A program made the translations under genes and the position numbers. Below, piece by piece: positions 1 to 16,050 of a stretch of 35,108 nt of DNA. This DNA is from Kofleriaceae bacterium (GTDB lineage Bacteria; Myxococcota_A; Polyangia; Haliangiales; Haliangiaceae), in contig JANTGM010000058.1 of NCBI GenBank assembly GCA_024762925.1, positions 1-35,108 of the forward strand. The letters are read 5' to 3'. How positions within the stretch are numbered: the first letter of the stretch is position 1; each line of letters begins with the position of its first letter. The notes below the pieces were generated by a model that was not told the DNA's origin, searched no databases, and saw nothing but the letters and a program-made list of their open reading frames with translations.

Positions 1-158
1 TTCGTGATCGCGAAGTCAGCTCGTTTGCTGGCGAGGCGGGAAGAGGGAGTTTGCTGGGGCAAGCGACCGAGGAACAACGAAGAAGACTGGCTGAGCCCGT
101 CTCTCCAGCGGGCGAGAAGACGAGTGAGCGCGTTCTATATTCATGAATCGCGCACTCG
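1..158 (+). repeat. MITE-like structured repeat, copy 1a (left end cut by window)
   Basis: This stretch aligns with copies at about 11714-11898 and 34837-35011. Shared landmarks in order are GATCGCGAAGTC (7-18), TTTGCTGGCGAGGCG, a hairpin TTTGC-TGGG-GCAAG (50-63), GCGAGAAGACGAGTGAGC, and a right end GAATCGCGCACTCG. Small stems are conserved while their bases change: CTCG/CGAG here is CTTG/CAAG in copy 2, and the first T of TTTGC forms a G-U pair where the other copies have C-G. That points to selection on structure, or to a hairpin-shaped mobile element. Its right end shares the four bases CTCG (155-158) with the left end of the neighbouring inverted copy. About 25 bases of the left arm lie outside the window. 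Confidence 0.72.
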
Positions 159-263
159 TGTGGGATCCAGAGGCATAGAACGCCCTGGCTCGGTTCTTCG
201 CGCCTTGTCAAAGAACGAGATCCCGTCGCCAGCACATTTCTATTCCTCTGAGCCGCACACTAG
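155..263 (-). repeat. MITE-like structured repeat, copy 1b, inverted and internally deleted
   Basis: The two ends are imperfect inverted repeats of 26 bases (CTCGTGTGGG... at 155 and ...CGCACACTAG ending at 263, about 20 of 26 matching). Read on the minus strand, the stretch from GCGACGGGAT through CTCGTTCTTTGACAAGG to GCGCGAA follows copy 3 (34870-34904) closely. It then jumps to a GCGCGAAGAACCGAG block like the one near the right end of copy 3. It therefore looks like a shortened family member (about 110 instead of 175-185 bases) lacking the middle, with the break at the repeated GCGCGAA. It abuts copy 1a head to head and ends nine bases before the mukB stop codon. Confidence 0.65.
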
Positions 264-271
264 TGAGGCTT

Positions 272-3200
272 TCAGAACTCTTCCGATGACTCATCTTTTG
301 TTTCGGAGGAGCCAGCTTCGTTCTCGACCACGGCGCGGCGCCCCGAGACCAGCACCTCCTCTCCGCCGCCCTTGAGGGCACGACGGACGAGGCGATAGGT
401 TGTGTTGTCGCCTGCGTGGGCAACTTCGGGTGCTGCAATGAGAAGCTGCAGCTCCAGATTTCGACACAACTCGAAGAGCACGCCAAGATTGTCCTTGGAC
501 AATCGGTTGGCCTCATCCAAGAACAGAAAACGCAGACTGCCACCGAGCTTTTGACTGCGCAAGAGGTTTGCATCTCGCTCCCACTCCGTAAGCACAACCA
601 TCATTAGCGCCGCTCCAACTCCGATAGCTTCTCCCGTCGAAAGCCGCGTGGGACTTGCCTCTTCCCAGCGGTCACCAGACTGTCTGCGAATTTCGACTCC
701 AAGTTCAAGGTACTCTCGATAGTCCAAGAGGCGCTGGCCACCACCACGACCACCACCATAGCGGCTGAAGATTTCGCTCAGTGCATCTTCGAAGGGGAGA
801 GATGCTTGAAATAGAAGCTCCTGAGCCTGCCCATCTCGCAGCGCTCGGAGAATCTGCTCCATTCGCTCAACACGGCTCATCTGGACGCGAATGCCTGAGA
901 TTGTGCCAAAGTGGATGTTCTCAAGATGCTCGTTGAGGCGCTGGACCTGCCAGCGAGCTCGGCGAAGCTGCACATCGACACCGCGCGCGACGTCTTCTGA
1001 AGCAGAGCGCAAGTCGCCTTCTTGATTGCTGAGCCGCGACTCTAGCCCCGAGAGATGTTCCCGAAGTCGCTCCAAAGCGCGCAGCGGATCGGCTTCTTGC
1101 GAGATCTGCGCCGGTACGCGCTGGCGCATCCACTCGCGCAGGGATAGCCAGACTCGGAGTTGTTCTGATTCTCCTCCGATCTCAACGCCTGAGGGAAGCC
1201 CTTGCACGAGCGAGAGAAGCTCTTCGCCACCCCGAGCTTGGCTCAGCCGATCGACGAGCAAATCGCGTTTCCCTGCCGCCTGAGTAACAAGCTGCTCGGC
1301 CGAGCGAGCGCGCCTCGCCCCCTCACCATCCATGAGAATGCCACTGAGCAGGCCCGCCTCGTCGCACGCATCACGCAGCTCGTTCCAACTCACTTGCGAC
1401 GGCTCGCTCGCCAAGATCTCGTTCTTGACCGCGGCTCGTGCTTCGGCCAGGCGGTGCTCTGATCGCGAGAGTCTCTCCCGATCACGTGCGCCACTCTCCA
1501 CGGCCTCAAGCAGTTCCTTGTCCAGTGAGAGCAGACGACGTTTCACCTGACCTGAGGTGTCCTCGCCAGCCTCACGATCGGGTCCAAGCTCGCTGAGGTC
1601 AAGTGCGAGACGCTCGCGCATGGCCATGGATGCCGCGCACCGCGCATCTGCAGCTTGCCATACCTTGGTAGCCCCAGCCCATTCTTGTTCCGCATTGGCA
1701 ACCGACCGAGCCGCCTCCGCGGTGGCTTCGCGAGCCTGTAGATGTTGCTCCTCGAGTGCCGGAACCAGGCTGGTGCGACTGGCGAGCAACTCCTCAGCGT
1801 CATGCCACTCCGAAGCATGACGATTCGCCATTGCCTCGTTTAGCAGGTCGCGGACTGCAAAGAGTTCGTCACGACGCTGATCCAGAGACTTGATTCGCTC
1901 TTGCGCATCGCTAACGTCGGAGGCTTTGGGCGGCTCGTTGCGAAGGACATCGAGCAAGACCGCCACAGTTTCACGCGGTCCTTGAGCCGCCACAAGCAGG
2001 CCACTTGTGTGTGTGGCGCGCGTAATCTGCTCATCAATGGCGTCGCGCCTTGTTCGGAACTCTGGAGGTTCAAGCAGTGCGCCCTCGGACAGAATACTTC
2101 GTAGTGCATCGACTTCGCCGCGAAGGCCAGTAGCACGCTCTCGAGCATCACTCGCCTGAGTACGAGCGTCCGCAACCTCAGATTGCAGGGATGTGCCTTT
2201 CTTCGCCAGCTCTTCCCGCAAGGGGCTCGGATCTCCAGCGAGATACACGTCAAGAGAATCACGCAGCACGCCAAAGTCGCGATGCAGGGCTGCCAGCTGC
2301 AGCTTCTCACGTGCACTTGCCTCAAGGTCTTCTCGCAACTCCGTGGCACGAGCTCGAGCGCGTTCAATGGCCTCCACTCGAGCGGCGCGACCAAGAGTGG
2401 GATTCCTCGGTACCGGACTCACCCTCGTCGCCAACCCATCAACAACAACCACGCAACTGGCCTGCAAGGAAGTATCACTGGCGACACTCTCAAGAGGAGT
2501 CCCTGCAGCCACCAGCCACACACTCTGGTTTGGTGGCTCGGGCGCTTCGGCTAGCACCTTCGCGGCGGCCTCGACATCATCCACAATAATCGCTTGAGAG
2601 AGAGGCCCAAGGCTCGCTTCCAAGCGCGCAGCATCGCTCGCAGCCAACTCCTCAAATCGACCCGCGACGAGCTCTCCTCCCAGAATATCTCTTACTCGCA
2701 GAAGCTCCGATGAGAGCGATCCGCCTGTGCTCTCGAGATCCGATACAAGTTGCAAGGCGGCTTCACGTGCTCGTTCCAGGCCGATGCGGCTCTGCACATG
2801 CGCCGAGTGCCGGTCCGACAACGCAGCTTCTGCAGCCTCAAGATCCTGCACCGAACGGAATCCTTCTGCGGCCACCTTCAAAGCCGATGAGAGGTGCTCG
2901 GCAGCCTTCGACGCAACCGCATAGCGAGCGCTTCGCAGCTCAAGCGCCTCTGTTTCTAGTGTCATCGATGCAAGGTCTCGCTCGTGTCTTGCCGCGAGCC
3001 CATCGTAGAAGCGGGCGCGCTCTTCGTCTTCGCCCCATAGCGCCTCCACTTGTTCGAGGCGCGCTGCGAGTGCGTCAGCGGCACCGAGTTTGCCAGTAGC
3101 AATCCCGAGTTTCTCCGCACGTTCCCGCGCGCTTTCCTGTCGAGCAATCTTGCCCTCGAGGTCACGACCTTCCTGTTCCAGGTCCGCGAGCCGGCCTTGA

Positions 3201-4732
3201 GTCGCCTCACGGCGATCGAGTTCCGCCAACAACAGCCGGGCTCGCTGGTGTGGACTTGTGCTCTCATGCTGCTCGGTTTCCACGAGCTCCGCCAATTCAG
3301 CCAGGGCACTGCTTGCGCGTTGGTACTCATCTCTGCGAACAGCAAGACTCTGCGTCTCACGTTCGAGTGTTGCGCGTTCGAGGTCGAGCTCTTGCGACTC
3401 CACCTTGAGTCGGGCAAGCGCTACAGCACAGTCGCCAAGGCCAAGTTCAGGAGCGTGCAACGCCTCACGGGCTTGCTGCAAGCTTCGGTGTAGCTGCCGA
3501 TAGTCCCGCGCTCGTCGATGCAGCTCATCCAGACCATCTTGCAGTTTTGCCAACCCACCGGCAGCTCGATCGTATGCTTCCTGAGCCGAGTCTCGGGCGG
3601 TTTGCCACGCAGTGCGCTCTTCGTCGCAGGCTTCCATCACGTGCTTTGCTAGCTCGGCGTTTTTCCTTAGCTCCAAGAGTTCCTCATCGCGCTCTGAGAG
3701 TTCCTGGCGAAGCAACTCTGCCTTGCGGCGACGCTCTTCCTCGAGCTTTGCGTGTTCGAGAGCGAGACGAGCATCTCGTTGACGCGCTTGTACCTGCTCT
3801 TGCCTGGCCTTGTGGGCGGCAACAGCGCTTTCGAGCTCCACATGCCCCCGAGCAACAGCGGAGAGATTTTCCTTCGCCTTCGCAAGGGACTCGCGTCGCT
3901 GATGCGCACGAGCTCGCACAGCCAGTACTTGCGTGCTGAAGAATGCTGTGCCTGCATCGTACACGCCGCTGATCTCGCGCTGCAGCCGTCGCGCATCGCC
4001 CACCTCGCCACGACTTCGCCGGCATGCGTCGAGATTCGCTCGCATTAGGCTTAGCGTGTCGGCAAGGCCAGACTCTTTCTTCAAGACAAAGGAACGAAGC
4101 TCTTGGGTAAGCGTCTTCGAGATTCCTCCTGTCATGCTCGTGCGAAGCATCTCGTTGAACTTGTTTCGGTCTTCCTCGCCGACGAGTCGCATGGGTGTAA
4201 TACCTCGTTCGAAGAGCGCTGAGAAGTACTCCTTCACCGCACGAAAGACCTGCAGGGTTGCGCCCGCCTCGGTAGCTGCCTGGCGCAGCTCGGTGATTTC
4301 TGGAACATGCTCGTCCTCACCGTCTTGAACTAAGAATAGTTCCTGCAACCTGACGTCATCTCGCAATGACTCAATGACGAATGGAGTTGCCTCGACACTT
4401 GGCTCCCCCTTCTTTGTCAACCGCACTCCTGCAATCAACCGACTACCATCAGCACGTCGGATTTCAAGCGCCGTATAGGAGGGGCGTGCTGCCTCGCCAA
4501 GGCGCCCCCAGATGCCACGGTCGCTACCTTTGGCGCCACTCTCGCCTACATTGGTGAAGCGCAGCCTCGATAGATCTGGCAGCAGTGCCACGTAGGCGGC
4601 AATCATCACCGTCGTCTTGCCTGCGCCGTTGCCACCTTCCAAGGCGGTTACGTTCGAATCAAGCAGGTAGCGCTCGTAGAACACACCTCGCCAGTTGACG
4701 AGTAAGAGAGAGATAATCTTGGTGCGACTCAC
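272..4732 (-). CDS. mukB: Chromosome partition SMC-type ATPase MukB
   Basis: This is the ATPase subunit of the MukBEF condensin, which extrudes DNA loops on the nucleoid. The 1486 residues equal the length of E. coli MukB as I recall it. The N-terminus has LVNWRGVF, then the Walker A GGNGAGKTT (K39). Long coiled coils flank a hinge at roughly 660-790, where GPLSQAIIVDD and TLGRAARVEAIE follow the E. coli hinge pattern. The C-terminal head has GGQRLLDYREY, the ABC signature LSTGEAIG (about 1365), Walker B FLFLDEANRL (about 1405) and the MukB-type tail LQLLIAAPE...TTYRLVRR. The start is GTG, nine bases after mukE, with no clear Shine-Dalgarno. Wadjet JetC proteins are usually shorter and lack this MukB hinge, so I favour true MukB. 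It is the last gene of the mukFEB set. Confidence 0.96.
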   Translation of the reverse strand: MSRTKIISLLLVNWRGVFYERYLLDSNVTALEGGNGAGKTTVMIAAYVALLPDLSRLRFTNVGESGAKGSDRGIWGRLGEAARPSYTALEIRRADGSRLIAGVRLTKKGEPSVEATPFVIESLRDDVRLQELFLVQDGEDEHVPEITELRQAATEAGATLQVFRAVKEYFSALFERGITPMRLVGEEDRNKFNEMLRTSMTGGISKTLTQELRSFVLKKESGLADTLSLMRANLDACRRSRGEVGDARRLQREISGVYDAGTAFFSTQVLAVRARAHQRRESLAKAKENLSAVARGHVELESAVAAHKARQEQVQARQRDARLALEHAKLEEERRRKAELLRQELSERDEELLELRKNAELAKHVMEACDEERTAWQTARDSAQEAYDRAAGGLAKLQDGLDELHRRARDYRQLHRSLQQAREALHAPELGLGDCAVALARLKVESQELDLERATLERETQSLAVRRDEYQRASSALAELAELVETEQHESTSPHQRARLLLAELDRREATQGRLADLEQEGRDLEGKIARQESARERAEKLGIATGKLGAADALAARLEQVEALWGEDEERARFYDGLAARHERDLASMTLETEALELRSARYAVASKAAEHLSSALKVAAEGFRSVQDLEAAEAALSDRHSAHVQSRIGLERAREAALQLVSDLESTGGSLSSELLRVRDILGGELVAGRFEELAASDAARLEASLGPLSQAIIVDDVEAAAKVLAEAPEPPNQSVWLVAAGTPLESVASDTSLQASCVVVVDGLATRVSPVPRNPTLGRAARVEAIERARARATELREDLEASAREKLQLAALHRDFGVLRDSLDVYLAGDPSPLREELAKKGTSLQSEVADARTQASDARERATGLRGEVDALRSILSEGALLEPPEFRTRRDAIDEQITRATHTSGLLVAAQGPRETVAVLLDVLRNEPPKASDVSDAQERIKSLDQRRDELFAVRDLLNEAMANRHASEWHDAEELLASRTSLVPALEEQHLQAREATAEAARSVANAEQEWAGATKVWQAADARCAASMAMRERLALDLSELGPDREAGEDTSGQVKRRLLSLDKELLEAVESGARDRERLSRSEHRLAEARAAVKNEILASEPSQVSWNELRDACDEAGLLSGILMDGEGARRARSAEQLVTQAAGKRDLLVDRLSQARGGEELLSLVQGLPSGVEIGGESEQLRVWLSLREWMRQRVPAQISQEADPLRALERLREHLSGLESRLSNQEGDLRSASEDVARGVDVQLRRARWQVQRLNEHLENIHFGTISGIRVQMSRVERMEQILRALRDGQAQELLFQASLPFEDALSEIFSRYGGGRGGGQRLLDYREYLELGVEIRRQSGDRWEEASPTRLSTGEAIGVGAALMMVVLTEWERDANLLRSQKLGGSLRFLFLDEANRLSKDNLGVLFELCRNLELQLLIAAPEVAHAGDNTTYRLVRRALKGGGEEVLVSGRRAVVENEAGSSETKDESSEEF

Positions 4733-4741
4733 GGAGGAGGC

Positions 4742-5521
4742 CTACTCGTCGTTGTCCTGCACTTCTTCAGAAGTCTCCGGCGCATCCTCAGAGTTTTCCC
4801 CATCAGAGTCCACAACCAATTCTCTTACATCCGCCGTTGAGCCGTGCTCACTTGATTCGTCGGAATCCTCCGAATCCATCGTTGGCTCCTCGGTTAGCTG
4901 GATCTCGCCACTTGCAACGAGCTTTGCCAAGGCCTCCGCGGGATCCGCGAGGCCACGCACAGGCTCGGCGAATCGCAGAAGCGCAGGTCGGAGGCGAATC
5001 TGTCCGTCGGCAACGAGCTCGACAAATCCGAAGCCAGCGAGGCGCCTCACTTCAACAGCGACTTTCTTTCTCACGGTTTCCTGTGCGACCCGTTCGTCGT
5101 ATCGACGTCGCTTTGGATTGAAGCTGCGAATGAGGGCATCGGTCCCGACAACACCATCGAGTTGTGCAAGGAGTTGGTCCTTGGTGACGAGTCCTCCCAA
5201 GCCTGCAGTCGCAGGATCAAGATACAACAGCGCCAACGCTTGGCCCACCAGCATCGCCCCCGTGCTTAGATGTTTCTTGCGCAGACGATCGCCAGTTGGC
5301 AACAAGAAGAAGTAGCCATCCGCTCGCTGCACCAGATCACAACCATAGCGCGCATAGAATTCTTCTAAGAGAGACTGAGCATCGATAAGAAACCCATACC
5401 AGGCCGTGTCGTCCCGATCAATGTGACGGCCACGTCTCAGAGCTAGATCAACCTCGGGAAATTCGTCGGCACGTAGCGCGTCCTGCAGGTTGCTGATGGA
5501 ATTGCTTGTGCTCTCACTCAT
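4742..5521 (-). CDS. mukE: Condensin accessory subunit MukE
   Basis: This is the kite-type winged-helix subunit that binds the MukF linker and the DNA in MukBEF. It has 259 residues against about 234 in E. coli. Diagnostic stretches shared with that protein are ALRRGRHID, LLEEFYARYGCDLV, YFFLLPTGD, LALLYLDP and VRRLAGFGFVEL, followed by LRFAEPVRGL.DPAEAL. The C-terminus is a long acidic Ser/Glu/Asp tail (from about 205) like the acidic end of MukE but longer. The ATG start sits inside the end of mukF: the 8-base overlap ATGAGTGA places start and stop together, suggesting translational coupling. The mukB GTG follows after nine bases. Confidence 0.95.
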   Translation of the reverse strand: MSESTSNSISNLQDALRADEFPEVDLALRRGRHIDRDDTAWYGFLIDAQSLLEEFYARYGCDLVQRADGYFFLLPTGDRLRKKHLSTGAMLVGQALALLYLDPATAGLGGLVTKDQLLAQLDGVVGTDALIRSFNPKRRRYDERVAQETVRKKVAVEVRRLAGFGFVELVADGQIRLRPALLRFAEPVRGLADPAEALAKLVASGEIQLTEEPTMDSEDSDESSEHGSTADVRELVVDSDGENSEDAPETSEEVQDNDE

Positions 5522-6941
5522 GATGCGGCTCCGAATTCGGCTCTAGATTCCAATCTTCAATGAGAAGATCCTCTCCAACACGCACCCAAGGACGTGGGCG
5601 CTCAAGGCTGGGTGTCCCCACTTCCGCTACGCTCTGGGCCACGCGTCCTGCGCTGGCAAACTGCTCACCGCCTTCGAGCTCTGAAGATAGATCGGCGGTA
5701 ACTTCCGAGAGAGTCTTTGCGCCTGCCCGCATTCGCTCCTCCACTTGACTGCGGAGGGCGGCATCCGCATCGAAGATTGGGCCTTGCTTTGGTGGTGCGT
5801 CTCGAGGTTTTCGAGGACGAGAAACAGGTGGCGCTTTTGGTCGCGCGATGGTCTCTCGGAGCAGTGTTATCGACTCTCCACCGGCAATGGCCAGCGCGAA
5901 GGAACGACCTGCGGTTCCTGCCAGCTGCTCGCGAAGCCGCTGCGTGAGTGCCCGTGATGGATCGAGTCGCACCACATCACGAAGGAATCGGTGCACATAC
6001 TGAAAGTACTCAGACCAGGCGCTCTGCCGGGCGCTTCCCCACGCCACAATGCGGTCGAGCTTCTCGATGAGCTGATGGGTGATACTAGCCGCTTCCACAC
6101 AAGAAGCACCTAGGGATAACTCTAATATATCTTGGAGCGTCTCCAGCAGTTGCTGACTGTCGCGCAGCAACAACTCATTTAGCTCACGCAGCGTCTTGCT
6201 GGTGCTCTCGAGCAAATCTTGGCACCTTGCAATGGCCCCAAACCAGTCGGCATCGAGCAAACCACGGATGGTGTTTTGAAATGACTCCTGCTGCTGGTCC
6301 AAACCGCGTTGGCGCCGTTCAATACCTCGAACCAAATCACTTGTACTCACTCGCAGGGGCGCAACCACCTGCTGTGCCCAATCCCCCTCGGAGCGTGCGG
6401 ACTTGCAAGCAGCCTTCACCTCATTCAGTGCCAGCGCCAGGCTGCGAGTGAGGACACTCAAACTCTCCCGAGTGAGAATTTCCTCTTCCAACAAGTTCTC
6501 AACGATCGCGGTAGCCAGTCTCGTTAGAGAATACTCTGGTGCGCGCACAACACCTAAGCCATCGATCCGGGACAACATGCGCTGCTCTCGCAGCCTTGCG
6601 ATGGCACGAGTGGCGTTCTTAGCTATAGGCTCGTCATCGACAGTCATCAATTCGCGAACATGCTCAAAGACATCTTCGAGTTGATGCTCGGCGAACGACG
6701 AAAGGTGTGACGTGGTAGATCGCAAGTGCAAGGCAACGAGGAAACAGAGGTCCGCAGTAGAGAGGACCACTGACAAGCCCTGCTGCACAACGGAATCGAT
6801 AGCCTGCGCAATGCGATCTGCGCTCGCATTTGAGTCCAGCTTCGCTCCACCTTCCCCGCCCGTATCGGGAGCGCTTTTGCCCACCACATCGTCCGACGGA
6901 TCGCGCTCGGCATCGTCGTGCTGATGGCTCTGGGAGGTCAC
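5514..6941 (-). CDS. mukF: Condensin kleisin subunit MukF
   Basis: This is the kleisin that bridges the two MukB heads and carries MukE dimers. It has 475 residues against 440 in E. coli. After an Asp-rich N-terminal extension (about 45 residues) comes the winged-helix part (ADLCFLVALHL, AIARLREQRMLSRID). Helical stretches typical of MukF follow: LLDADWFGAIARCQDLL, then KLDRIVAWGSARQSAW and VHRFLRDVVRLDPSRALTQRLR at about 290-335. A Pro-rich linker precedes the C-terminal winged helix that ends PWVRVGEDLLIEDW. The start is GTG. A TATAAC hexamer lies 12 bases upstream but no good -35 is visible. The arsenosugar glycosyltransferase gene ends only 43 bases upstream on the same strand, so read-through from that operon is possible. 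Confidence 0.94.
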   Translation of the reverse strand: MTSQSHQHDDAERDPSDDVVGKSAPDTGGEGGAKLDSNASADRIAQAIDSVVQQGLSVVLSTADLCFLVALHLRSTTSHLSSFAEHQLEDVFEHVRELMTVDDEPIAKNATRAIARLREQRMLSRIDGLGVVRAPEYSLTRLATAIVENLLEEEILTRESLSVLTRSLALALNEVKAACKSARSEGDWAQQVVAPLRVSTSDLVRGIERRQRGLDQQQESFQNTIRGLLDADWFGAIARCQDLLESTSKTLRELNELLLRDSQQLLETLQDILELSLGASCVEAASITHQLIEKLDRIVAWGSARQSAWSEYFQYVHRFLRDVVRLDPSRALTQRLREQLAGTAGRSFALAIAGGESITLLRETIARPKAPPVSRPRKPRDAPPKQGPIFDADAALRSQVEERMRAGAKTLSEVTADLSSELEGGEQFASAGRVAQSVAEVGTPSLERPRPWVRVGEDLLIEDWNLEPNSEPHHE

Positions 6942-6984: not shown

Positions 6985-8319
6985 TTACCGCGTGTGCTTG
7001 TAGAACGCTGCCAGGCGCTGCGGCGAGACCCCGAGTCGATAGAGCAGCGGAAAGGTGTTCATGAGCCCCAAGTAGTAGAGCGGGCGCTCTTGGAAGCGCC
7101 GTCCTGAGACTCGTAGCGGGCCGTGAGCCCGTGCCCACTTCCCTCGCTGGAGTAGTCGCTGAGCGAAATCGAGGTCCTCAAAAAGTGGCATTTCCCGATA
7201 TCCATCCAGGTCGCGAAAGGTTGACGCTCTAACGAATTGTGCTTGATCTCCATAGGGCAAACTGGTGTAGCGGGAGCGCATATCTGCCAGTCTTAAGAAG
7301 GGCGCCACCCAGCGGCGGCTGCGCCCAAACGCATCGTAGTCGGTCCGCAGTCGAAACGCGCCGCCAAGGGCACCCGGCACTCCCAGCGCGCTTCGAATCT
7401 GGGCGCTGGCATTCTTGGGAAGTCGCGCATCGGCGTGGAGAAAGAGCAGAATTCCGCCAAGCGCGCGTTTCGCCCCGGTGTTCATCTGACGTGCCCTACC
7501 CGGTTTGCTACGCACAAGGTCTACTCCTAGCTGACTTCTCGCAATTGAGACGCTCCCGTCATTGCTGCCTCCATCGCTTACAATAATCTGCGCAATCCCC
7601 GGAATTTCTCTTAGCTCCAGCAAAGCGTTCTCGAGCCTCTTAGCCTCATTGAGGATTGGCACGATTACAGATATCGCCTGATTTTCGTTGGATCCGAGGA
7701 AAGCACGGGTACAAGGCATTGCAGTTGGGTTCGAATCGAGAAACTCTTGCAGGTGGCGAAGGTCCTCGCTTTCATCGACGTCGAAACGCCTTGGCAAGAG
7801 CGCCACAGACATTCCCGCGCAGGTCAGGCGCCTCCTAGTTTCGTCGAAAGTCTCAGCACAGCTCCAAGAAACGCCAGCCAGCAAACCCTCTGGGCAGCGT
7901 TTGAGACCCATCAGATAGAACCCGCCATCTCGGGAAGGACCGAGCACGGCGTCATGTGTCTGTAGTGCCGTGGCTGCCAGCCTGGCATCGTCGTCGCCAA
8001 GACCGGGAATGTCCGTGCCCACAACGATCGCTGCGTCACTTGTGCGAAGGGCCGCGCGAACGACTCGCTCCATGCGTTGGCCCAGATTGCCTTCTCCCTG
8101 CTGCATGTGTGCGTGGATTGACACGTGTTCCCACAAGCGGGGTGTCCACGAACCTGTGTGCGCGATGAGGAGTTCAGAATTCTTCCAACTCGAGAGAGCA
8201 TCGAGCAGCAAAGCCTCGGCGAAGCGCGCTGTTCCCAGAAGCCCCAGCGCTGGGCCGAGTCGCGTTTTGGCTGCCCCGATCTGCGGAGCCTTCGCAAGCA
8301 GGCAGACGGTTGTTTTCAC
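6985..8319 (-). CDS. Fused arsenosugar-type glycosyltransferase (TIGR04282 + TIGR04283)
   Basis: This is one continuous 444-residue protein joining two families that are usually separate, neighbouring genes. Residues 1 to about 200 are the DUF2064/TIGR04282 nucleotidyltransferase-like domain (VCLLAKAPQIGAAKTRLGP, IVVGTDIPGL, GPSRDGGFYLMGL). From about 210 follows a GT2-type TIGR04283 glycosyltransferase (ISVIVPILNEAKRLENAL, VSDGGSNDGS, PGRARQMNTGA, FLHADARLP, FEDLDFAQRL). The real start is GTG at 8319, which overlaps the TGA of the upstream gene (GTGA) behind a GAGGAG ribosome site. The reading frame continues upstream to 8412, but that part would lie inside the TVP38 gene. The context with ArsS indicates transfer of sugar units in organoarsenical synthesis; the exact donor and acceptor are unknown. 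Confidence 0.9.
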   Translation of the reverse strand: MKTTVCLLAKAPQIGAAKTRLGPALGLLGTARFAEALLLDALSSWKNSELLIAHTGSWTPRLWEHVSIHAHMQQGEGNLGQRMERVVRAALRTSDAAIVVGTDIPGLGDDDARLAATALQTHDAVLGPSRDGGFYLMGLKRCPEGLLAGVSWSCAETFDETRRRLTCAGMSVALLPRRFDVDESEDLRHLQEFLDSNPTAMPCTRAFLGSNENQAISVIVPILNEAKRLENALLELREIPGIAQIIVSDGGSNDGSVSIARSQLGVDLVRSKPGRARQMNTGAKRALGGILLFLHADARLPKNASAQIRSALGVPGALGGAFRLRTDYDAFGRSRRWVAPFLRLADMRSRYTSLPYGDQAQFVRASTFRDLDGYREMPLFEDLDFAQRLLQRGKWARAHGPLRVSGRRFQERPLYYLGLMNTFPLLYRLGVSPQRLAAFYKHTR

Positions 8320-8996
8320 GCCTCCTCTGCCCCTCTGAGTGCTTGCGCCGACCACCTGCCCAGCACCAAGGTCGCAAAGAGCGTTGCCGCAAGCCCAGTC
8401 CAAAACAGCCATCCCCCCTCAACGGAAATGCCTTTCCCCACATCACCAAGAGAGTTGAGCGACGCGCCTAAATGCGTATAGAGCAGGATTCCTGGGACCG
8501 TTCCGAGAGCGGAAGCGACAACGTATCCACGAAGAGAAACGCTGGTGAGTCCAAGAACATAGTTGAGAATCGAGAACGGCACCAAGGGCGAGAGCCTCAG
8601 CAAGAACACCAGCTTCGCCCCCTGCGCCTTTGTCCTCTCCGCGATGATACGAAAGGCCATGCTGTCGCCGTAGCGGCTCTCAACCCATGGTCTAAGCCAA
8701 CTTCTCGCCAACACAAACGCCGCCACAGCTCCCCCCAGACTTGAGGCAAATACGAGAACTCCGCCCTGGTAGGGACCGTAAAGAAGGCCTGCGGCAAGAG
8801 ACAATGGTGATGCAGGCAGCGCCAGGACTGTCGTGGCGACATAGAGCAGTGCGAAGACCAACAACCCAATGGTGCCAAGAGACTGGGCAAGGGCGACGGC
8901 AGAGAGAAGCCAATCGCGCACAGTGCTCTGCATCGCAATGAGCACACCGACTGCGAGCACAACGAGAAAGAAGAGTCTTTTGGTATTCGGGCGCAA
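8316..8996 (-). CDS. TVP38/TMEM64 family membrane protein
   Basis: This 226-residue polytopic inner-membrane protein has about five to six hydrophobic segments: an N-terminal helix (about 8-22), then LGTIGLLVFALLYVATTVL. The family core is ALPASPLSLAAGLLYGPYQGG, with GGAVAAFVLARSWLRPWV and the loop LVFLLRLSPLVPFSILNYVLGLT. That arrangement is the DedA/VTT fold. The start is TTG, directly after the arsS stop; the next in-frame ATG would delete part of the first helix. It sits between arsS and the fused glycosyltransferase, a position such proteins often hold in arsenosugar clusters, perhaps as a lipid or arsenical transporter. That role is inference. Confidence 0.88.
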   Translation of the reverse strand: MRPNTKRLFFLVVLAVGVLIAMQSTVRDWLLSAVALAQSLGTIGLLVFALLYVATTVLALPASPLSLAAGLLYGPYQGGVLVFASSLGGAVAAFVLARSWLRPWVESRYGDSMAFRIIAERTKAQGAKLVFLLRLSPLVPFSILNYVLGLTSVSLRGYVVASALGTVPGILLYTHLGASLNSLGDVGKGISVEGGWLFWTGLAATLFATLVLGRWSAQALRGAEEA

Positions 8997-8999
8997 CGC

Positions 9000-10001
9000 T
9001 TAGTCGGTTTGTATGGCACCGCCGCAGCTCGAGCCTGCCCCCGCAGTGCATCCGAAGCAGTGAGGTGCGGTGCGAATTGGCATTCTTCTTAGTTGCTCGA
9101 AGGAGTCGAGCGCCATCACATTGAGAGGACCTTCAACTCCGCTCGTCCCACTGGGCATCTCAAGCATTTGGTTGAAGTCACAATCGTAGATGCCGCCATC
9201 CCAAGAGATGCTCACTTGCTCAAGGCACATGAGCCCAGCAACCGTGGCTGGATTGAAGTTCTCGCACAGCAGATCCATATATTGATCGAGCTGACCGTCG
9301 CGCCTAAGGCTCTGCGCAAATCGGTTCACAGGAAGATTGCTCAAGGTGAGAAGCGATGAAAACGCGATTCCCATCGCACCAAGTTCGCTGCGGTACTTCT
9401 CCTCGAGGGTGGCTTGCGCAGGAGGTAGAAAGGGGCCGCCTGGGTTGTAGACCAAATCGAGCAGGAGCCCACTGCCCGGCTGGCCATAGCCGAGGTCCCC
9501 AAGTTGCCGCAACGCAGCGATGCTCCTGTCAAAGGTGCCCTTGCCGCGCTGAGAATCGACGTTGCCTTCCGAGTAGCATGGCAAGCTGGCAACAATGTGC
9601 ACGGAGTTCTCTGCAAGGAAGGCCGCCAAGTCCTCTTGGCCTGGTTCAAAGAGCACCGTTAGATTGCAGCGATCAATTACCTCGCGCCCCAATGCCCGCG
9701 CCTTTTGAACCATCGGGCGGAAATTTGTGTTGAGTTCGGGCGCGCCACCCGTGATGTCGAGCACCCCGGCAGATTCGCTGGCAGCAAAGAGGCTCATCAC
9801 CCGTTCTGCGACGTTCTCGCTCATTTGCTCGGTCCGCTTAGGCCCCGCCTCGACATGGCAATGCAGACAGGCTTGATTGCAAACTTTGCCTACATTGACC
9901 TGAATGGTCTCAATACTTCGCCGCACAAGGGGGCCAAGGCCTTGCCGTTGCAAACGCTTGTCAAAGCGCCATCTTGTTAGGGAGACGAGAGGTTGATTCA
10001 T
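9000..10001 (-). CDS. arsS: Arsenosugar biosynthesis radical SAM protein ArsS
   Basis: ArsS attaches the 5'-deoxyadenosyl group of SAM to dimethylarsenite, an early step in arsenosugar formation. The protein has 333 residues. The radical SAM cluster motif CNQACLHC (C41, C45, C48) follows IQVNVGKV. LDITGGAPELN is the SAM-binding GGE-like region with GAPE. The C-terminal part matches the DUF3641 half of the family (LVYNPGGPFLPPAQ, CLEQVSISWDG, YDCDFNQML), ending with an extra cysteine group CFGCTAGAGSSCGG that probably holds an auxiliary Fe-S cluster. It is the first gene of a three-gene operon. No arsM methyltransferase gene is visible on either side within the window, so the substrate must be made from elsewhere. 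Confidence 0.93.
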   Translation of the reverse strand: MNQPLVSLTRWRFDKRLQRQGLGPLVRRSIETIQVNVGKVCNQACLHCHVEAGPKRTEQMSENVAERVMSLFAASESAGVLDITGGAPELNTNFRPMVQKARALGREVIDRCNLTVLFEPGQEDLAAFLAENSVHIVASLPCYSEGNVDSQRGKGTFDRSIAALRQLGDLGYGQPGSGLLLDLVYNPGGPFLPPAQATLEEKYRSELGAMGIAFSSLLTLSNLPVNRFAQSLRRDGQLDQYMDLLCENFNPATVAGLMCLEQVSISWDGGIYDCDFNQMLEMPSGTSGVEGPLNVMALDSFEQLRRMPIRTAPHCFGCTAGAGSSCGGAIQTD

Positions 10002-10148
10002 CGAGTGATCGTCCTTGGGGGCTGAGAATGCCGTGCAAAACCACCATTAGTACAGGCGCGCCCCCAAAAGGTTACGGATCTCGTCGCCAAATGCCCGAGA
10101 ATACTCTGAAGCTGCGACATCGCTGCTGTGAGCTACACTTGTCCTATC

Positions 10149-11690
10149 GTGCGAATCTCGAAGCTCCCCCTCGCTATTTCCCTGAGTCTGGTGTCAGCGT
10201 GCGCTGGCTCAGCTCCACCCCCCGAGGAACCTGTTGCGCAGGTCAGCCCAGAAGAGAGCGCGAGGGAGTTTGTCATCAGCGAGGCAACGCCACCACGGGT
10301 CTACCGAAACGAAAGCGGTATCACCTTGCGCATGGTTGTTCTTGAGCCGCACGAGGGCGAGCTCCCCGAGGCCCTCCTTCAATTCAAAGGCGCAAATTTC
10401 CCAGCGGCCGGCAAGGTGATGCTGGCAAGAGATCACGGTACCGCTCCGTATCAGAATTGGAAAATCCGGTATGACGGCGATGAGCGAAACATCGTCAAGA
10501 TCTACTTGGAGACTAGCGGCAAGGCCAGAGGAGAACTCTCGGTTTCGCTCCGAATGCCGCGCAGCAGAGCTGCGTCGCGAATGCAACTCGACTTAGAGGC
10601 GAGCAAAGCATTTGATGTAGATGCCTTTATTGCCACACATCTTCGCCATAAGGCAGACGGCACGTTGGACGCTCTCGCCAAGGTCGACCGCAAGTACCAT
10701 AAGGAACAGTGGCTTCGCAGGATGGCCTTCGCCCACAAGGAGGTGGAGAAGAACTGCGGGCAAGCCCTGCCTTATGAGGTGGACTTTGCGAGTATTTCGG
10801 ACGTCCAACTCAGCTCGAAGGAGCTGTGCGAGGTTGCCCTTCGCTCCGTTGCGAAGCTCTGCAGACGCGACACACAGACGCGAGAGGATCTGCGACAGAG
10901 AGTCTCGAAAGTGCGCTGCGCATACGCGGAGAACAACAACCTGAGCCTAGATGCTGATGGTACGCTGAACCTTGAGCTCGACAATTCCAATGCGATGAAT
11001 AGCAAGGAGGCATACACCCGACTCAAAGAGATTCTTGGACTTGGCAGGCTCGTACTGGAGGATGAGAAGAAGCGCATCATTGTTTTTGACCCTGATGACC
11101 AGACTGGCAATAGCCCAATTTTATTGGGTGATGACAAAGTACTCCGCAAGCTGCGTCTAGCTCAGCAGGCACTCTGGACTTGGGATCCACACGCAAGATC
11201 GCGCGTAGCCGAGCTTAAGCGTGCGGATACCGGCTGGCAGGTTCGGTGCCGAAGCAAGACGGTGAGGTTTCATCCAGTCTCGCGCAAGCGCCGGGCAAGC
11301 ATTCTCAAGAACGCAAAGCAGAAAGAAGACGTGCTGTGGCGGCGTGAAGCATTTGCGCTCGCTAGGGATAACCGTGGCATCTACTACTACGTAGACAGGC
11401 TCGCCCCGCAGTTTGGCGGCAAGAGCTTTCGAGTCTTTAGGGGCCCGCGCGGGCAGGTTGGGGAAACCGCCCTGGTCGACATCGTGGATGATAGTGATGG
11501 AAAGATCTTTGCGACAAAACGCGGGAAACTTCGCCTGGTCATCGGCAAAAACAGCATGCAAGAAGCCCTTTGGATCGAAGGCAAGAAGCGCCACAAGCTC
11601 GTGGTGCTACCGCTCTCCGGAAACATCGAGCTCATCTACACTGGACTTGGTATCTACGACAGTGAAGTGATGGGTACCATCTGCGAATAG
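10149..11690 (+). CDS. Predicted lipoprotein of unknown function
   Basis: I do not recognise this family. I chose GTG at 10149 because it gives a clean lipoprotein signal (MRISKLPLAISLSLVSAC); a GTG at 10128 would add seven residues before it. A Pro/Glu-rich spacer follows the lipidated Cys. The mature part is about 490 residues, basic, with helical (KVDRKYHKEQWLRRMAFAHKEVEKNC) and beta-rich stretches and five scattered cysteines. Near the C-terminus GGKSFRVFRGPRGQVGE is followed by short beta segments. A TACACT hexamer at 10134-10139, close to the start, could be a -10 box, which would make the message nearly leaderless. It is divergent from arsS and convergent with the barrel gene beyond the repeat. 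Cell-envelope location is inferred from the lipobox only. Confidence 0.8.
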   Translation: MRISKLPLAISLSLVSACAGSAPPPEEPVAQVSPEESAREFVISEATPPRVYRNESGITLRMVVLEPHEGELPEALLQFKGANFPAAGKVMLARDHGTAPYQNWKIRYDGDERNIVKIYLETSGKARGELSVSLRMPRSRAASRMQLDLEASKAFDVDAFIATHLRHKADGTLDALAKVDRKYHKEQWLRRMAFAHKEVEKNCGQALPYEVDFASISDVQLSSKELCEVALRSVAKLCRRDTQTREDLRQRVSKVRCAYAENNNLSLDADGTLNLELDNSNAMNSKEAYTRLKEILGLGRLVLEDEKKRIIVFDPDDQTGNSPILLGDDKVLRKLRLAQQALWTWDPHARSRVAELKRADTGWQVRCRSKTVRFHPVSRKRRASILKNAKQKEDVLWRREAFALARDNRGIYYYVDRLAPQFGGKSFRVFRGPRGQVGETALVDIVDDSDGKIFATKRGKLRLVIGKNSMQEALWIEGKKRHKLVVLPLSGNIELIYTGLGIYDSEVMGTICE

Positions 11691-11713
11691 TTCTCATCGC
11701 CTGTGAGCGTGAC

Positions 11714-11898
11714 GCTACAGACATGTTCCAGAGAGATTGAGATGGGATCGAGAAGTCCGCTTGTTTGCTGGCAAGGCATGCGAAGGGAGCTTGCTGGGGC
11801 AAGTGACCGATCAAGCAATGATGCGCGTTGGCATGTCAACGCGTCCCGGGGGCGAGAAGACGAGTGAGCACGCTCAATCTCTTTGAATCACGCACTAG
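11714..11898 (+). repeat. MITE-like structured repeat, copy 2
   Basis: This is a full-length family member between two convergent genes. Inner arms AGAGATTGAG (11732-11741) and CTCAATCTCT are perfect inverted repeats near the two ends. The outermost ends are more diverged (CTACAGACATGTTC against GAATCACGCACTAG). Inside are CTTG-TTTGCTGG-CAAG, the hairpin CTTGC-TGGG-GCAAG (11790-11803), and GCGAGAAGACGAGTGAGCACG shared with copy 1a. The right end contains the TAG stop codon (11895-11897) of the minus-strand barrel gene, so the element forms that gene's 3' end. No transposase is encoded. Confidence 0.72.
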
Positions 11899-12575
11899 AA
11901 GCTCCCGACAAGGCCAACAGAGACTAGCATTCCCGATGTGTTCACGGAGCCCAGGTTGGCGCTTGTCGTCTCCAACAGGAGCTCCTCGCTGCCCTCACTC
12001 ATCGGAGTCGCGCTAAAGTTCAGAGGCGCCATAGCGCGATAGGCAAGCTTGCCCCGGATGCCGAGATTGAACTCATTGCCTTGGTTCGTGAGCCGCACAT
12101 CTACGCCCGTGCCTAGACTGCTGGCCGCCGACTTGTCCCAATCCTCGAGACTCCGCGCCGAGTTTGAGTCAGCATCGTCCAGCTGCAAGTGTCCCCATTG
12201 CACACCGAGCCCAAACTCCCCGAAGGCCGAGATGCGAGGGGAGATGGGCCTGCAAACGCGGCTGAGTAGCATTACGGTATTCATACCCAGGTCTGACTCA
12301 ATGCGCCCAAAGCTCGTGCCTGAAACACCACCGCTTCCCCAGTTGAGCGCGACTTCTGTGTGTCCAAGAATGGGGACATGCAAGATCGTGAGCCCCGCTT
12401 CCAAATCGAGGCGCGCAAAGCCCGTGGCATTGGTTAACGAATCTACACTCTTGCTAGGTAGGTAGCTCGAGCCACCACCGATGCTCACTTGATAGCGCTC
12501 TGCGTGTGCAGAGGACGTCAGCGCGAGCCCTGCCGCAACAATCAATCCGGGAACTAGCATTTTTGAAGCGTTCAT
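11895..12575 (-). CDS. Small outer-membrane beta-barrel-like protein
   Basis: The protein has 226 residues with a classical signal peptide ending SSAHA-ER (cleavage near residue 25). The mature part alternates polar and hydrophobic residues in about eight strands (YQVSIGGGSSY, ARLDLEAGLTIL, HTEVALNWG, SAFGEFGLGVQWG, FNLGIRGKLAYRA) and ends in a strand closing on Phe (LVSVGLVGSF). This is typical of an 8-stranded OmpA/OmpW-size barrel inserted by BamA. I cannot name the family. It is the last gene of a three-gene operon, two bases after a beta-propeller lipoprotein gene, so it may anchor or export those propellers. Its stop codon lies inside a repeat element. Confidence 0.8.
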   Translation of the reverse strand: MNASKMLVPGLIVAAGLALTSSAHAERYQVSIGGGSSYLPSKSVDSLTNATGFARLDLEAGLTILHVPILGHTEVALNWGSGGVSGTSFGRIESDLGMNTVMLLSRVCRPISPRISAFGEFGLGVQWGHLQLDDADSNSARSLEDWDKSAASSLGTGVDVRLTNQGNEFNLGIRGKLAYRAMAPLNFSATPMSEGSEELLLETTSANLGSVNTSGMLVSVGLVGSF

Positions 12576-12577
12576 GA

Positions 12578-14200
12578 CTACTCATCCTCGTCTAGGTATT
12601 CTTCTAAAAGAAAGCCGCTCATCACTCGGGCATCGCTGCGTTGTGCATCAATGCTCGGTATGTAGGTTGCACGTCCAAAGGCGTCGCCATGATCCACCAT
12701 GATGGCACCTCCCTGGAGCGCAAAGACACGGCCAGGGTCGTCGTCGATCCGAATGTTGGTTGGGTGCAGCGACTGCAGATCCAAGATCCCGACACGCGAC
12801 ACCTGGTTGGTTACGCCGACAAGAAAGCTTCCATCCGCGCTGAAGTCGAAAGAGTCGAGTCTTCCGACTCCCTCGAGCGGCGAGACGGCGCCAAGGCTCA
12901 CATCGAGAAGTCCAAGGACCGTTCGGTTGGCATCGTGCACGATCAGCGCTTGCTCGCTGCCGGGGATTTGAAGAACATCGAGCACAGGCTCCGACATCGT
13001 CACCGTTCGCAAGTCCACCGGAACCAGTTGGTCGGAGATTCCATCGAGCGCGAGTAAGTGCACTCGAGGAAGGCCTTGGGAAATCGATGCAAGCAACGCA
13101 ACTCGAGGCTGCAGATTTGGGTCATTGGGAAAGAGCATGATGCGGTCGATGGGATCTGGCGTGCTCACCGTGACAAAGGAAGCCGTATCGGCGTCAATGA
13201 CCGCGACCTGGCGACTGCTAGGCATGGCAGCCAAGACGAAGCGCCTGTCGATTGCGTCATCCCAAACTGCGACATCGGCGGGGCCTCCTCCGGCTCCAAG
13301 TTCGGCCAGGGCGGGCTGGTAGTCATTGTCCTGTTCCGACTCAGGCTCTTCGGCACTGAGCAGGACCGAGAGGACGTCGGATGCGTTGTCTGAGCGAACG
13401 TATGCGGTTCCTGTGTTTGGCGCAAAGACCAACTCTTGTGGTCGGATCATCGCGGCATTGGTGCTACCTGTCCCGAGACGAATCGTCACTTCTCTCCTCG
13501 TCGGATGCGTTGCATCGAGCAGTGTCAAAGTATTCTCCGCCAGCAGAAAGGCAAACACTCGCGGCGAGGTATCTTCAGCACCCGGAATTCGCATTGGTGG
13601 TGAAAGAACAACGCCATCCGGGGCAGAACCAAACGAGCGCACAGTGCGCAGTGTCGGGTTCTCATCGCTAGGCGCACTCTCCAAGTCGACAATCGCGAGT
13701 TCGTTGGGGTTGCGAAAGACGCCGGTCGTCGCATCAAAGCCACCAGATGAGAAGTAGGCAACCGCCACACTGCCATCGGATGAGACGGCAAGCCGATCAA
13801 AGGCCGAGCCAATCTCGTACGACTGAGCCACCGAGTTTGGTTCCGACAGATCCAGAATCCAGAGTTTCGGATCCTCATCGACCTGGCCCTTTACCAAGGC
13901 CTCCTCACCGCGCGTGATGACCGCAAGATGGTCTCGATCGGGGGTTGGAGTGGCAAATATCGCGTTTCGTCCAATGTCATAGCTGTGAAAATCGGGGCGT
14001 CCATCTGCTGTCTCAATCGAAAGCACGCGGTCGCGCGCTGTATCGACATAGGCAAGGCGGCTCTTGACGGCGACTGGGCCGATGATGACTCGCTCTCGGT
14101 CCCACGACTCATCTCGCTCGTCGCCATAGCAGGCGGCTAGGGAGAGAAAGCAAAGAAGGCCAAACCCTCGGAGTATTCGTGTTTTTCTTAGATTCGTCAT
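12578..14200 (-). CDS. Beta-propeller lipoprotein (downstream paralogue)
   Basis: The protein has 540 residues. The signal ends in lipobox LAAC (Cys at about 24) and is followed by an acidic linker YGDERDESWD. The rest is a string of WD/YVTN-like blades (SRLAYVDTARDRVLSIETADG, DRLAVSSDGSVAVAYF, FDFSADGSFLVGVT). No catalytic motif is visible. It is paralogous to the gene just upstream: the NELAIVDLES region and the C-terminal GRATYIPSIDA..DARVMSGF region line up with DVTVIRL and GRVSFIDVASDAMRTVTGF there. AGGAG lies seven bases before the ATG. It probably sits on the outer membrane or periplasmic face as a binding scaffold; the ligand is unknown. Confidence 0.85.
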   Translation of the reverse strand: MTNLRKTRILRGFGLLCFLSLAACYGDERDESWDRERVIIGPVAVKSRLAYVDTARDRVLSIETADGRPDFHSYDIGRNAIFATPTPDRDHLAVITRGEEALVKGQVDEDPKLWILDLSEPNSVAQSYEIGSAFDRLAVSSDGSVAVAYFSSGGFDATTGVFRNPNELAIVDLESAPSDENPTLRTVRSFGSAPDGVVLSPPMRIPGAEDTSPRVFAFLLAENTLTLLDATHPTRREVTIRLGTGSTNAAMIRPQELVFAPNTGTAYVRSDNASDVLSVLLSAEEPESEQDNDYQPALAELGAGGGPADVAVWDDAIDRRFVLAAMPSSRQVAVIDADTASFVTVSTPDPIDRIMLFPNDPNLQPRVALLASISQGLPRVHLLALDGISDQLVPVDLRTVTMSEPVLDVLQIPGSEQALIVHDANRTVLGLLDVSLGAVSPLEGVGRLDSFDFSADGSFLVGVTNQVSRVGILDLQSLHPTNIRIDDDPGRVFALQGGAIMVDHGDAFGRATYIPSIDAQRSDARVMSGFLLEEYLDEDE

Positions 14201-14209
14201 GATGAACTC

Positions 14210-15895
14210 CTAGTCGACAATGCGACTATTCAAGTCAAAGCCGGTGACGGTTCGCATCGCATCGCTCGCGACATCGATAAACGAGACTCGGCCAAGAGGG
14301 TGGCGCTGGTTGACAAAGGCCATACCCGCTTGTGGCAACACACCCACAGTTTCTGGCGGTGAGCTCATGTTCTGCAGTCGCACAACGCCCGTGTCCAATT
14401 CAATGATGTGGGTTTGCGCGACGGCACCAGGGCCATCTCCGCCGTCAACCAAGACGTACGCTCTTGGTGTAGTTGTAGAGAAGCGAAAGGCTCCCGGGTC
14501 AGCTTCAGTGATCTGGAGTTTGTCGAACCCCGTTGCGATATCGACGATCGAGTATCCATAGCTCCGGTCGATAAACTCCTCGAACGAAATTCCATTTTCT
14601 TGCGCGTCTCCAAAGCTCTTTGCGTGGGTGACAATGAGTGAGGTTGCGGTTGGGTCATAGCCCAAGGAGCGAATGCTCTTTTGCAGGCTGAAGCTTCGCA
14701 CCGCTGGAGCTGGACTCAAGTCCACTACGGTGAGGCGCTCGACGCTGCTGGCATTCGTGAAGAGAATCGCTTGATCCCCAAGGGGCGATAGAACCATGGA
14801 CCCAACGGTCTCTCCGCCAAGGTCGATCCGTGTCACGTCACTGGCATCTGGCAATCCTCCTGCCAAATCGATCACAACCAACTCGCTGGTATCCTTGATA
14901 ACGGCGTAGGCAGCCAAGCCATTTGTGGCCAAGTCCAGATCGCTGGGCTCGCCTGGCAGCACAAGGCCGCGACTCACTCCAAGTTGCCCGGCCGTGAGCC
15001 CGACGACTCGAATTTCGGGATTGGCCACCTCGCGGACCACTGCGAATTCTCCCGAGGCGACGATGTTGACTTCCATGTCGAGCGGGTCGGCGCTAGAGCC
15101 TCCCGAAATATCAACAGGGGCAACAATGCTGGGGCCAGCTTCGATGGCATTCGCCATGTCGATGATCGAAATGCCATCATCGGTAACCACGTATGCACGA
15201 CTGCCATCATCGTTGAACTGCACGTCTCGCGGACGAAATCCGACGCTGAGATCGACGGAACGCTCGCTATCTTGGCGCAGTCGAATCACCGTTACGTCTT
15301 GGAAACTGCCAATCGCTCCAACTCCGGAAAGACCACCTGAGTCGAGGGTCTCTTGTCGCAAGTCAAACCACGCCAGCGCGTAAGAGCCTGTTGGATCAAC
15401 CGAGATGCGATTCATATTTGGCAACACCGGAACGACTCGGGTGTCATCGCCGCCATTCACAGCGCGCACGATGGATGCCGTGCCATTGTTGCGATCCAGA
15501 ACGACGACTCCATCACTTCCGGGAATCGCTTCGAGGACTTCGGGTTGATCGCCCACCGGAATTGACTCCACCGATAAGGTGGTTCCGTCGATCTTGGCCA
15601 GCGCATCGAGCTCACTCATTGCGACGTAGACGAATCGCTCGGAGTGCGTGGGTGCGCTGAGTTCCGATTCGATTTCCACAGCTCCAGGTCCACCATCCGG
15701 CGCCCCGGGTGCAGGCGGCACACAGGTTCCAAACTCGGTGCACGTCCACCCCGTCGGGCACTCGTTGGATGAAAGACAGTCAGGCAAACTGCCTGCGCCA
15801 GCATCGCTGCTGCTAAAGCTCCCATCGCCTGCATAGTCTGAGCCGCATCCAGCTGAGAGCCAGAGTGCTGCTGCCAATATGGTTCGAAACCTCAT
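14210..15895 (-). CDS. Beta-propeller lipoprotein with short Cys-rich N-terminal module (upstream paralogue)
   Basis: The start was chosen at the second of two adjacent ATGs (15895), five bases after GGAGG. The open frame runs further upstream but without a signal. The signal ends in LSAGC, giving a lipoprotein of 561 residues. A Ser/Asp/Gly spacer is followed by a small Cys-rich module, CLSSNECPTGWTCTEFGTC, common in surface lipoproteins of myxobacteria-like organisms, and then Pro/Gly linkers. From there on it is YVTN/WD-type blades (RFVYVAMSELDALAKIDG, NRISVDPTGSYALAWF, SRAYVVTDDGISIIDM). First gene of the operon with its paralogue and a barrel. It diverges from the hutF-like gene across 155 bases. 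Confidence 0.85.
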   Translation of the reverse strand: MRFRTILAAALWLSAGCGSDYAGDGSFSSSDAGAGSLPDCLSSNECPTGWTCTEFGTCVPPAPGAPDGGPGAVEIESELSAPTHSERFVYVAMSELDALAKIDGTTLSVESIPVGDQPEVLEAIPGSDGVVVLDRNNGTASIVRAVNGGDDTRVVPVLPNMNRISVDPTGSYALAWFDLRQETLDSGGLSGVGAIGSFQDVTVIRLRQDSERSVDLSVGFRPRDVQFNDDGSRAYVVTDDGISIIDMANAIEAGPSIVAPVDISGGSSADPLDMEVNIVASGEFAVVREVANPEIRVVGLTAGQLGVSRGLVLPGEPSDLDLATNGLAAYAVIKDTSELVVIDLAGGLPDASDVTRIDLGGETVGSMVLSPLGDQAILFTNASSVERLTVVDLSPAPAVRSFSLQKSIRSLGYDPTATSLIVTHAKSFGDAQENGISFEEFIDRSYGYSIVDIATGFDKLQITEADPGAFRFSTTTPRAYVLVDGGDGPGAVAQTHIIELDTGVVRLQNMSSPPETVGVLPQAGMAFVNQRHPLGRVSFIDVASDAMRTVTGFDLNSRIVD

Positions 15896-16050
15896 CATTA
15901 CCTCCAGCGCACCTCTATCGCAGGGCTTGTGCCGAAGTGGGCAGCGGGTCATTTCGACGACTTGACGAAGTTCCGTTTTGCCATTCATTGCCATCTGAGA
16001 CAGCAATGTCGCGATTGGCGCCAGTGTGGAACCCCTTGTTAGCGTAGGTC

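Follow-up and report, generated by a model that had tools for sequence, protein, structure and literature searches.

The window analysed here, a 35,108-nucleotide stretch of a Kofleriaceae bacterium that makes up the entire contig C58 of genome G000 (6.79 Mb, 246 contigs, 98.3% complete), carries an operon for the SMC complex MukBEF. We consider it probable, at roughly 60%, that this operon specifies a MukBEF which serves the chromosome in an auxiliary role and has lost the nuclease that its plasmid-defence-type ancestor had. The reading was drawn from sequence comparisons with related loci, among which the full-length MukB family was found in two kinds, nuclease-bearing and nuclease-less. The existence of these two kinds is the new observation of this work.

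The three genes are intact and lie on the minus strand at bases 272-6941 in the enterobacterial order mukF-mukE-mukB, as a preliminary description of the window had proposed. mukF and mukE overlap by 8 nucleotides, and a gap of 9 nucleotides separates mukE from mukB. The genes, the motifs of MukB and the flank are listed below in window coordinates; the Walker A, signature and Walker B motifs were placed by alignment with E. coli K-12 MukB.

5514..6941, minus strand: mukF, kleisin, 475 residues, GTG start (NCBIfam MukF 292 bits, cut-off 407; Pfam MukF_M 94.6, KicB 48.8 and MukF_C 14.6 bits)
4742..5521, minus strand: mukE, KITE subunit, 259 residues (Pfam MksE 112 and MukE 109 bits; NCBIfam MukE 104.7 bits, cut-off 250)
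272..4732, minus strand: mukB, SMC ATPase, 1486 residues, GTG start (NCBIfam MukB equivalog NF003422, 835.6 bits, cut-off 699)
4610..4636, minus strand: Walker A GGNGAGKTT, MukB residues 33-41
2306..2773, minus strand: MukB-type hinge, MukB residues 654-809 (PF16330, 94.2 bits)
626..643, minus strand: ABC signature LSTGEA, MukB residues 1364-1369
512..529, minus strand: Walker B FLFLDE, MukB residues 1402-1407
1..271, minus strand: tail 3' of mukB to the contig end, in which the start of a JetD-like gene is not present by profile

The NF003422 match spans residues 1-1481 of the motor. Pfam gave 251 bits for the MukB N-terminal family (cut-off 23) and 94 bits for MukB_hinge (cut-off 27), and the top match in the PDB was MukB (E 4e-97). 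The SMC hinge PF06470 was absent from the window motor, the sole match in the genome lying on contig C13. MukE and MukF stayed below the cut-offs of their NCBIfam equivalogs; the Pfam cut-offs were reached for MukE, MukF_M and KicB, and MukF_C fell short. By these profiles, the motor is filed as MukB proper and the whole complex as a divergent MukBEF. Residues K39, S1365, D1406 and E1407 align with K40, S1366, D1406 and E1407 of E. coli, which bears out the earlier remark that the signature and Walker B sit at nearly the same positions; the claims of a 1486-residue MukB and a MukB-type hinge held as well. K39 and T40 of Walker A were invariant in all 39 non-gammaproteobacterial MukB rows.

Searching plasmids with the window MukB yielded 15 records. 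Fourteen were gammaproteobacterial MukB of the E. coli type, and the fifteenth was a MukB from a Burkholderia pyrrocinia plasmid (43% identity over 93% of the query). On that plasmid, mukF-mukE-mukB is directly followed by a DUF2220 gene, DUF2220 being the domain of the JetD/MksG nuclease, and SAVED and WYL genes lie nearby. Besides the plasmid, 12 of 48 mukB loci carry a JetD/MksG-like Toprim nuclease gene directly 3' of mukB, adjoining or overlapping its stop. The gene is absent from 24 loci, each with at least 1 kb downstream, while the other 12, including the window, stop at the contig edge. An apparent occurrence of JetD-like genes at 31 loci was discarded as an artefact, the clustering of neighbouring open reading frames having mixed overlapping mukB reading frames with JetD-like genes. 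A JetD-like profile built from the aligned proteins matched 13 of 52 MukB-bearing genomes at E ≤ 1e-135 and one more weakly (9e-5). In 12 of the 13, the nuclease gene stands beside mukB; in the remaining one (G581), MukB and the nuclease are on separate contigs. Over the class, 18 of 317 genomes matched this profile, 11 of them at E < 1e-100. The preliminary description had missed these sister systems.

The nuclease-bearing sisters are true MukB by profile: three relatives tested scored 889, 1052 and 1211 bits on the MukB equivalog, and the MukB hinge is present in each. A control JetC of canonical type (1137 residues, from a genome of the same class) had no NCBIfam match at the limit used. 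Canonical JetC proteins in two genomes of the class measured 1137-1151 residues. The JetD-like protein has about 325 residues, and no DUF3322 match was found in it. Seven of eight nuclease proteins scanned reached the Pfam cut-off for JetD_C, and the eighth scored 16.9 against 22. E196, D241 and D243 were kept in all 13 aligned proteins; they follow the pattern set by E236 and D279, the metal-binding acids of MksG according to a passage of PMC10123090, the correspondence being one of spacing, not structure. A PDB profile search with the JetD-like proteins found MksG (E 5e-4) over the Toprim stretch, and in a profile comparison with two canonical JetD proteins the Toprim DxD stretch alone was matched (E 5e-4, probability 30%). 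It is thus the Toprim half that supports a kinship with JetD. The UBP9 JetD-like protein, folded alone, gave a mean predicted local distance difference test (pLDDT) score of 36. The columns that differ between nuclease-bearing and nuclease-less MukB are scattered, with no docking motif evident. Separate canonical JetC and JetD genes are present in two genomes, G505 and G543, and G543 also holds both kinds of full-length MukBEF (L082 and L083). In one nuclease-bearing operon (L045, in G018), mukE and mukB stand about 2.2 kb apart (10739-12949), a gap that none of the other listed operons shows.

Because the window is the whole contig, just 271 nucleotides remain 3' of mukB. The JetD-like profile had no match at E ≤ 1 in this tail. 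Tails of equal length from four nuclease-bearing loci all matched (1e-31 to 1e-37), so the window tail is long enough to reveal the start of a nuclease gene. A JetD-like gene was likewise not found anywhere in G000 by two profiles.

A tree of concatenated MukF, MukE and MukB was calculated from 42 rows and 1329 columns, comprising 38 of the 48 loci, the Burkholderia plasmid and three gammaproteobacteria; ten loci with a short or broken mukB were left out. Twenty-two nuclease-less rows, including the window, formed one clade with 100/100 support, within which the window paired with its congener at 100/100. The sister group consisted of six nuclease-bearing rows, Burkholderia among them (100/100), and the two groups joined at 100/99. 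Further nuclease-bearing rows branched outside the joined clades with moderate support. As the clade is nested among nuclease-bearing rows, any root placed outside the window branch makes the absence of the nuclease there a secondary loss, and nuclease loss in this branch is thus supported by the sequence tree. In a tree of the MukB head alone, support for the nuclease-less clade was weaker, at 84, and long branches met.

We compared the differences in the MukB head with those in ScpA for 21 nuclease-less rows (the window included) and 11 nuclease-bearing rows. Close nuclease-less copies diverged in step with their hosts (MukB head/ScpA 0.02/0.02, 0.03/0.03, 0.10/0.10, 0.13/0.23 and 0.16/0.28), with a Pearson coefficient of 0.47 and a Mantel p ≤ 0.0005 over the nuclease-less rows. 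Within the class, the nuclease-bearing copies jump between hosts: pairs stood at 0.06/0.43 and 0.29/0.04, and the seven rows gave a Pearson coefficient of 0.10 (Mantel p 0.36). The divergence of the nuclease was correlated with that of MukB (Pearson 0.94, p ≤ 0.0005, 13 loci); the two diverge together and are thus inherited as a unit. Broken nuclease-bearing operons were also encountered. In G573 (L172, G573:C76, 4498-7700), mukF, mukE and the nuclease gene are present, and mukB is reduced to residues 1-30 and ~1341-1472. At L170 (G328:C394, 3697-4611) and L171 (G355:C583, 1007-1921), a nuclease gene present from residue 47 onwards adjoins the first residues of mukF, and mukE and mukB are gone. 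The latter two have an identical junction and score in genomes assigned to different families, and they are perhaps a shared or misbinned contig. Fragments of nuclease-bearing operons occurred in four more genomes.

The host was assigned through its MYXO-CTERM tags, which are typical of the phylum Myxococcota. G000 had 35 matches and none of 14 control genomes had any, so the host belongs to the Myxococcota, as the preliminary description had supposed; no 16S rRNA gene was found in G000. Of 377 genomes drawn from the phylum, 28 had a PF04310 match at E ≤ 1e-3. Fifteen of these matches were strong (E < 1e-60); the other 13 were weak, short P-loop stretches and were dropped. Within the class, 58 of 317 genomes matched, 42 strongly (E ≤ 1e-39, one as two pieces). 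The full-length MukB family extends over several Myxococcota families, one UBP9 bacterium, which was found among the matches listed in a contig scan with the MukB alignment, and one Burkholderia plasmid. The preliminary description had advised looking for Smc-ScpAB and MatP in the same genome. G000 contains one SMC hinge gene and ScpA, and ScpA was present in 48 of the 52 MukB-bearing genomes and in all 27 of the best quality. MatP was found in none of the 52; among the controls, E. coli alone matched.

Passages of a 2023 review (PMC10586767) describe how MukB dimers, with MukF-MukE as the bridge between them, extrude loops of DNA; for Wadjet, the likely mechanism is that the related motor activates JetD, which then cuts small circles. 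By analogy, the MukB motor, the MukF kleisin and the MukE KITE subunit of the window would assemble into a complete loop-extruding SMC complex. Lacking the nuclease, this complex would bind DNA and extrude it uncut, and it may act on the chromosome as an auxiliary organiser beside Smc-ScpAB. The nuclease-bearing sisters would restrict plasmids. We tentatively entertain a wider possibility, to which we give less than even odds: that MukB and the JetD-like nuclease together form an unrecognised plasmid restriction system of the Wadjet type built on a true MukB, which keeps the ancestral four-gene state, and that this state gave rise to chromosomal MukBEF without a nuclease on at least two occasions, in the line towards the gammaproteobacteria and in the myxobacterial branch of the window.

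The window complex resembles E. coli-type MukBEF in its subunits, gene order, MukB length, hinge type and ATPase motifs, and in having no linked nuclease. To this extent the earlier label 'E. coli-like' stood; it was overstated in view of a MukB identity of ~27% to E. coli K-12, the coexistence with Smc and ScpA, the absence of MatP, the patchy presence, and the loss of some partner contacts. Taking the contact residues of E. coli MukB from passages of PMC8602292 and PMC8523169, W1117 of the AcpP contacts was kept in the window protein and K1114 and C1118 were not, and D697 of the ParC contacts was kept, whereas D745 and E753 were not. These calls are soft, because the coiled-coil and hinge-loop alignments are uncertain at such a distance. 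Regulation probably differs from that in E. coli, judging by the missing MatP and the partly lost AcpP and ParC contacts. With Wadjet (MksBEFG, JetABCD), the window shares the F-E-B operon, to which the sisters add a JetD_C Toprim nuclease as the fourth gene. It differs from Wadjet in having a motor of MukB length with a MukB hinge instead of JetC, and in lacking the nuclease; the sisters' nuclease, in turn, departs from Wadjet JetD in its size and in the missing DUF3322 match. Like MksBEF without MksG, as in Pseudomonas aeruginosa for example, the window encodes a nuclease-less complex beside Smc-ScpAB, but its motor is MukB proper by profile.

Several observations weigh against a chromosomal complex that lost its nuclease. 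Presence is patchy, unlike that of a housekeeping condensin, with strong matches in 8 of 16 genomes of the genus g3 and 13 of 30 of the family f1. Two nuclease-less rows (G199 and G183) sit deep in the tree, and their position is not settled. Whether or not the gammaproteobacteria are included, the smallest number of changes is 2; the tree is therefore silent on a nuclease in the ancestor shared with E. coli MukB, and it does not choose between gain and loss relative to the gammaproteobacterial branch. Host tracking was weak for distant nuclease-less pairs (Spearman 0.18), which makes its deep part loose, and a copy from another family (G511) sits among the f1 rows at 0.21/0.52. Phylum-wide, the nuclease-bearing rows also correlated with their hosts (Pearson 0.60, p 0.01). 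The patchiness within the genus, the coexistence with Smc and ScpA, and the close kinship with nuclease-bearing copies would also suit a complex that still acts against plasmids or phages, through compaction or an unlinked effector. We regard this as rather unlikely: JetD was not found in G000 by two profiles, no conserved partner gene adjoins the operon, the ten downstream neighbours scanned are metabolic, signalling, surface or unassigned proteins, and close pairs track their hosts.

Three further explanations were considered and rejected. That MukBEF had replaced Smc-ScpAB as the main chromosomal condensin, as in E. coli, would fit the three subunits and intact ATPase residues; we rejected it as very improbable, given SMC and ScpA in the same genome, same-genus relatives without MukB, and the general lack of MatP. 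The preliminary description had left open an old or a transferred MukBEF, and of these the old origin stood. A recent transfer of gammaproteobacterial mukFEB could account for the same gene order and nearly equal MukB length, but it is already contradicted by the low identity to E. coli against 58% to the congener, by the long branch to the gammaproteobacteria, and by a G+C content of 0.59 for mukFEB versus 0.575 for the rest of the window; we give it next to no weight. Equally negligible is the notion that a JetC or MksB protein of Wadjet had been misnamed MukB. MukE does score slightly higher on Pfam MksE than on MukE, but the PADLOC JetC profile gave the motor just 65 bits against 836 for the MukB profile, the MukB hinge is present, the motor is longer than the MksB type, and the head tree, with long branches, sets it apart from JetC. 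The early assignment to true MukBEF, and not MksB or JetC, therefore stands on the profile scores.

Directly upstream of mukF, at 6985-10001 on the minus strand, lie arsenosugar-type genes: a fused TIGR04282/TIGR04283 glycosyltransferase, a VTT membrane protein and an ArsS radical SAM protein. No smtA/cmoM-like gene precedes the operon, in agreement with the preliminary description. The region 10128-16006 holds four sizeable open reading frames to which neither Pfam nor NCBIfam assigned a family at the limits applied, apart from weak matches of the beta-propeller type in one. A protein with Kazal, antistasin and somatomedin-B-like domains is encoded at 32612-33664 (plus strand).

The preliminary description had placed the complex outside the usual gammaproteobacterial range. 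The Myxococcota host agrees with this, but the occurrence was not wholly new: one clause of a 2013 review names MukBEF in 'some Gamma- and Deltaproteobacteria' (PMC4255302). In their passages on distribution, the 2023 review and a 2024 paper (PMC10586767, PMC10945525) give MukBEF for enterobacteria and relatives only. A 2025 paper surveyed 254,733 bacterial genomes for operons of the Wadjet group and points out that MukBEF lacks MksG/JetD (PMC7617805). Among the papers listed by our literature searches, none dealt with nuclease-linked myxobacterial MukBEF, although that survey may already hold nuclease-bearing MukB operons. The present findings speak against recent accounts in which MukBEF occurs only in enterobacteria and their relatives and travels with matP. 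A passage of the 2023 review presents the origin of MukBEF and MksBEF from Wadjet as a tempting speculation (PMC10586767). With a nuclease-bearing true MukB and a nuclease-less branch nested beside it, this speculation becomes directly testable, as does the effect of nuclease loss on nearly the same motor.

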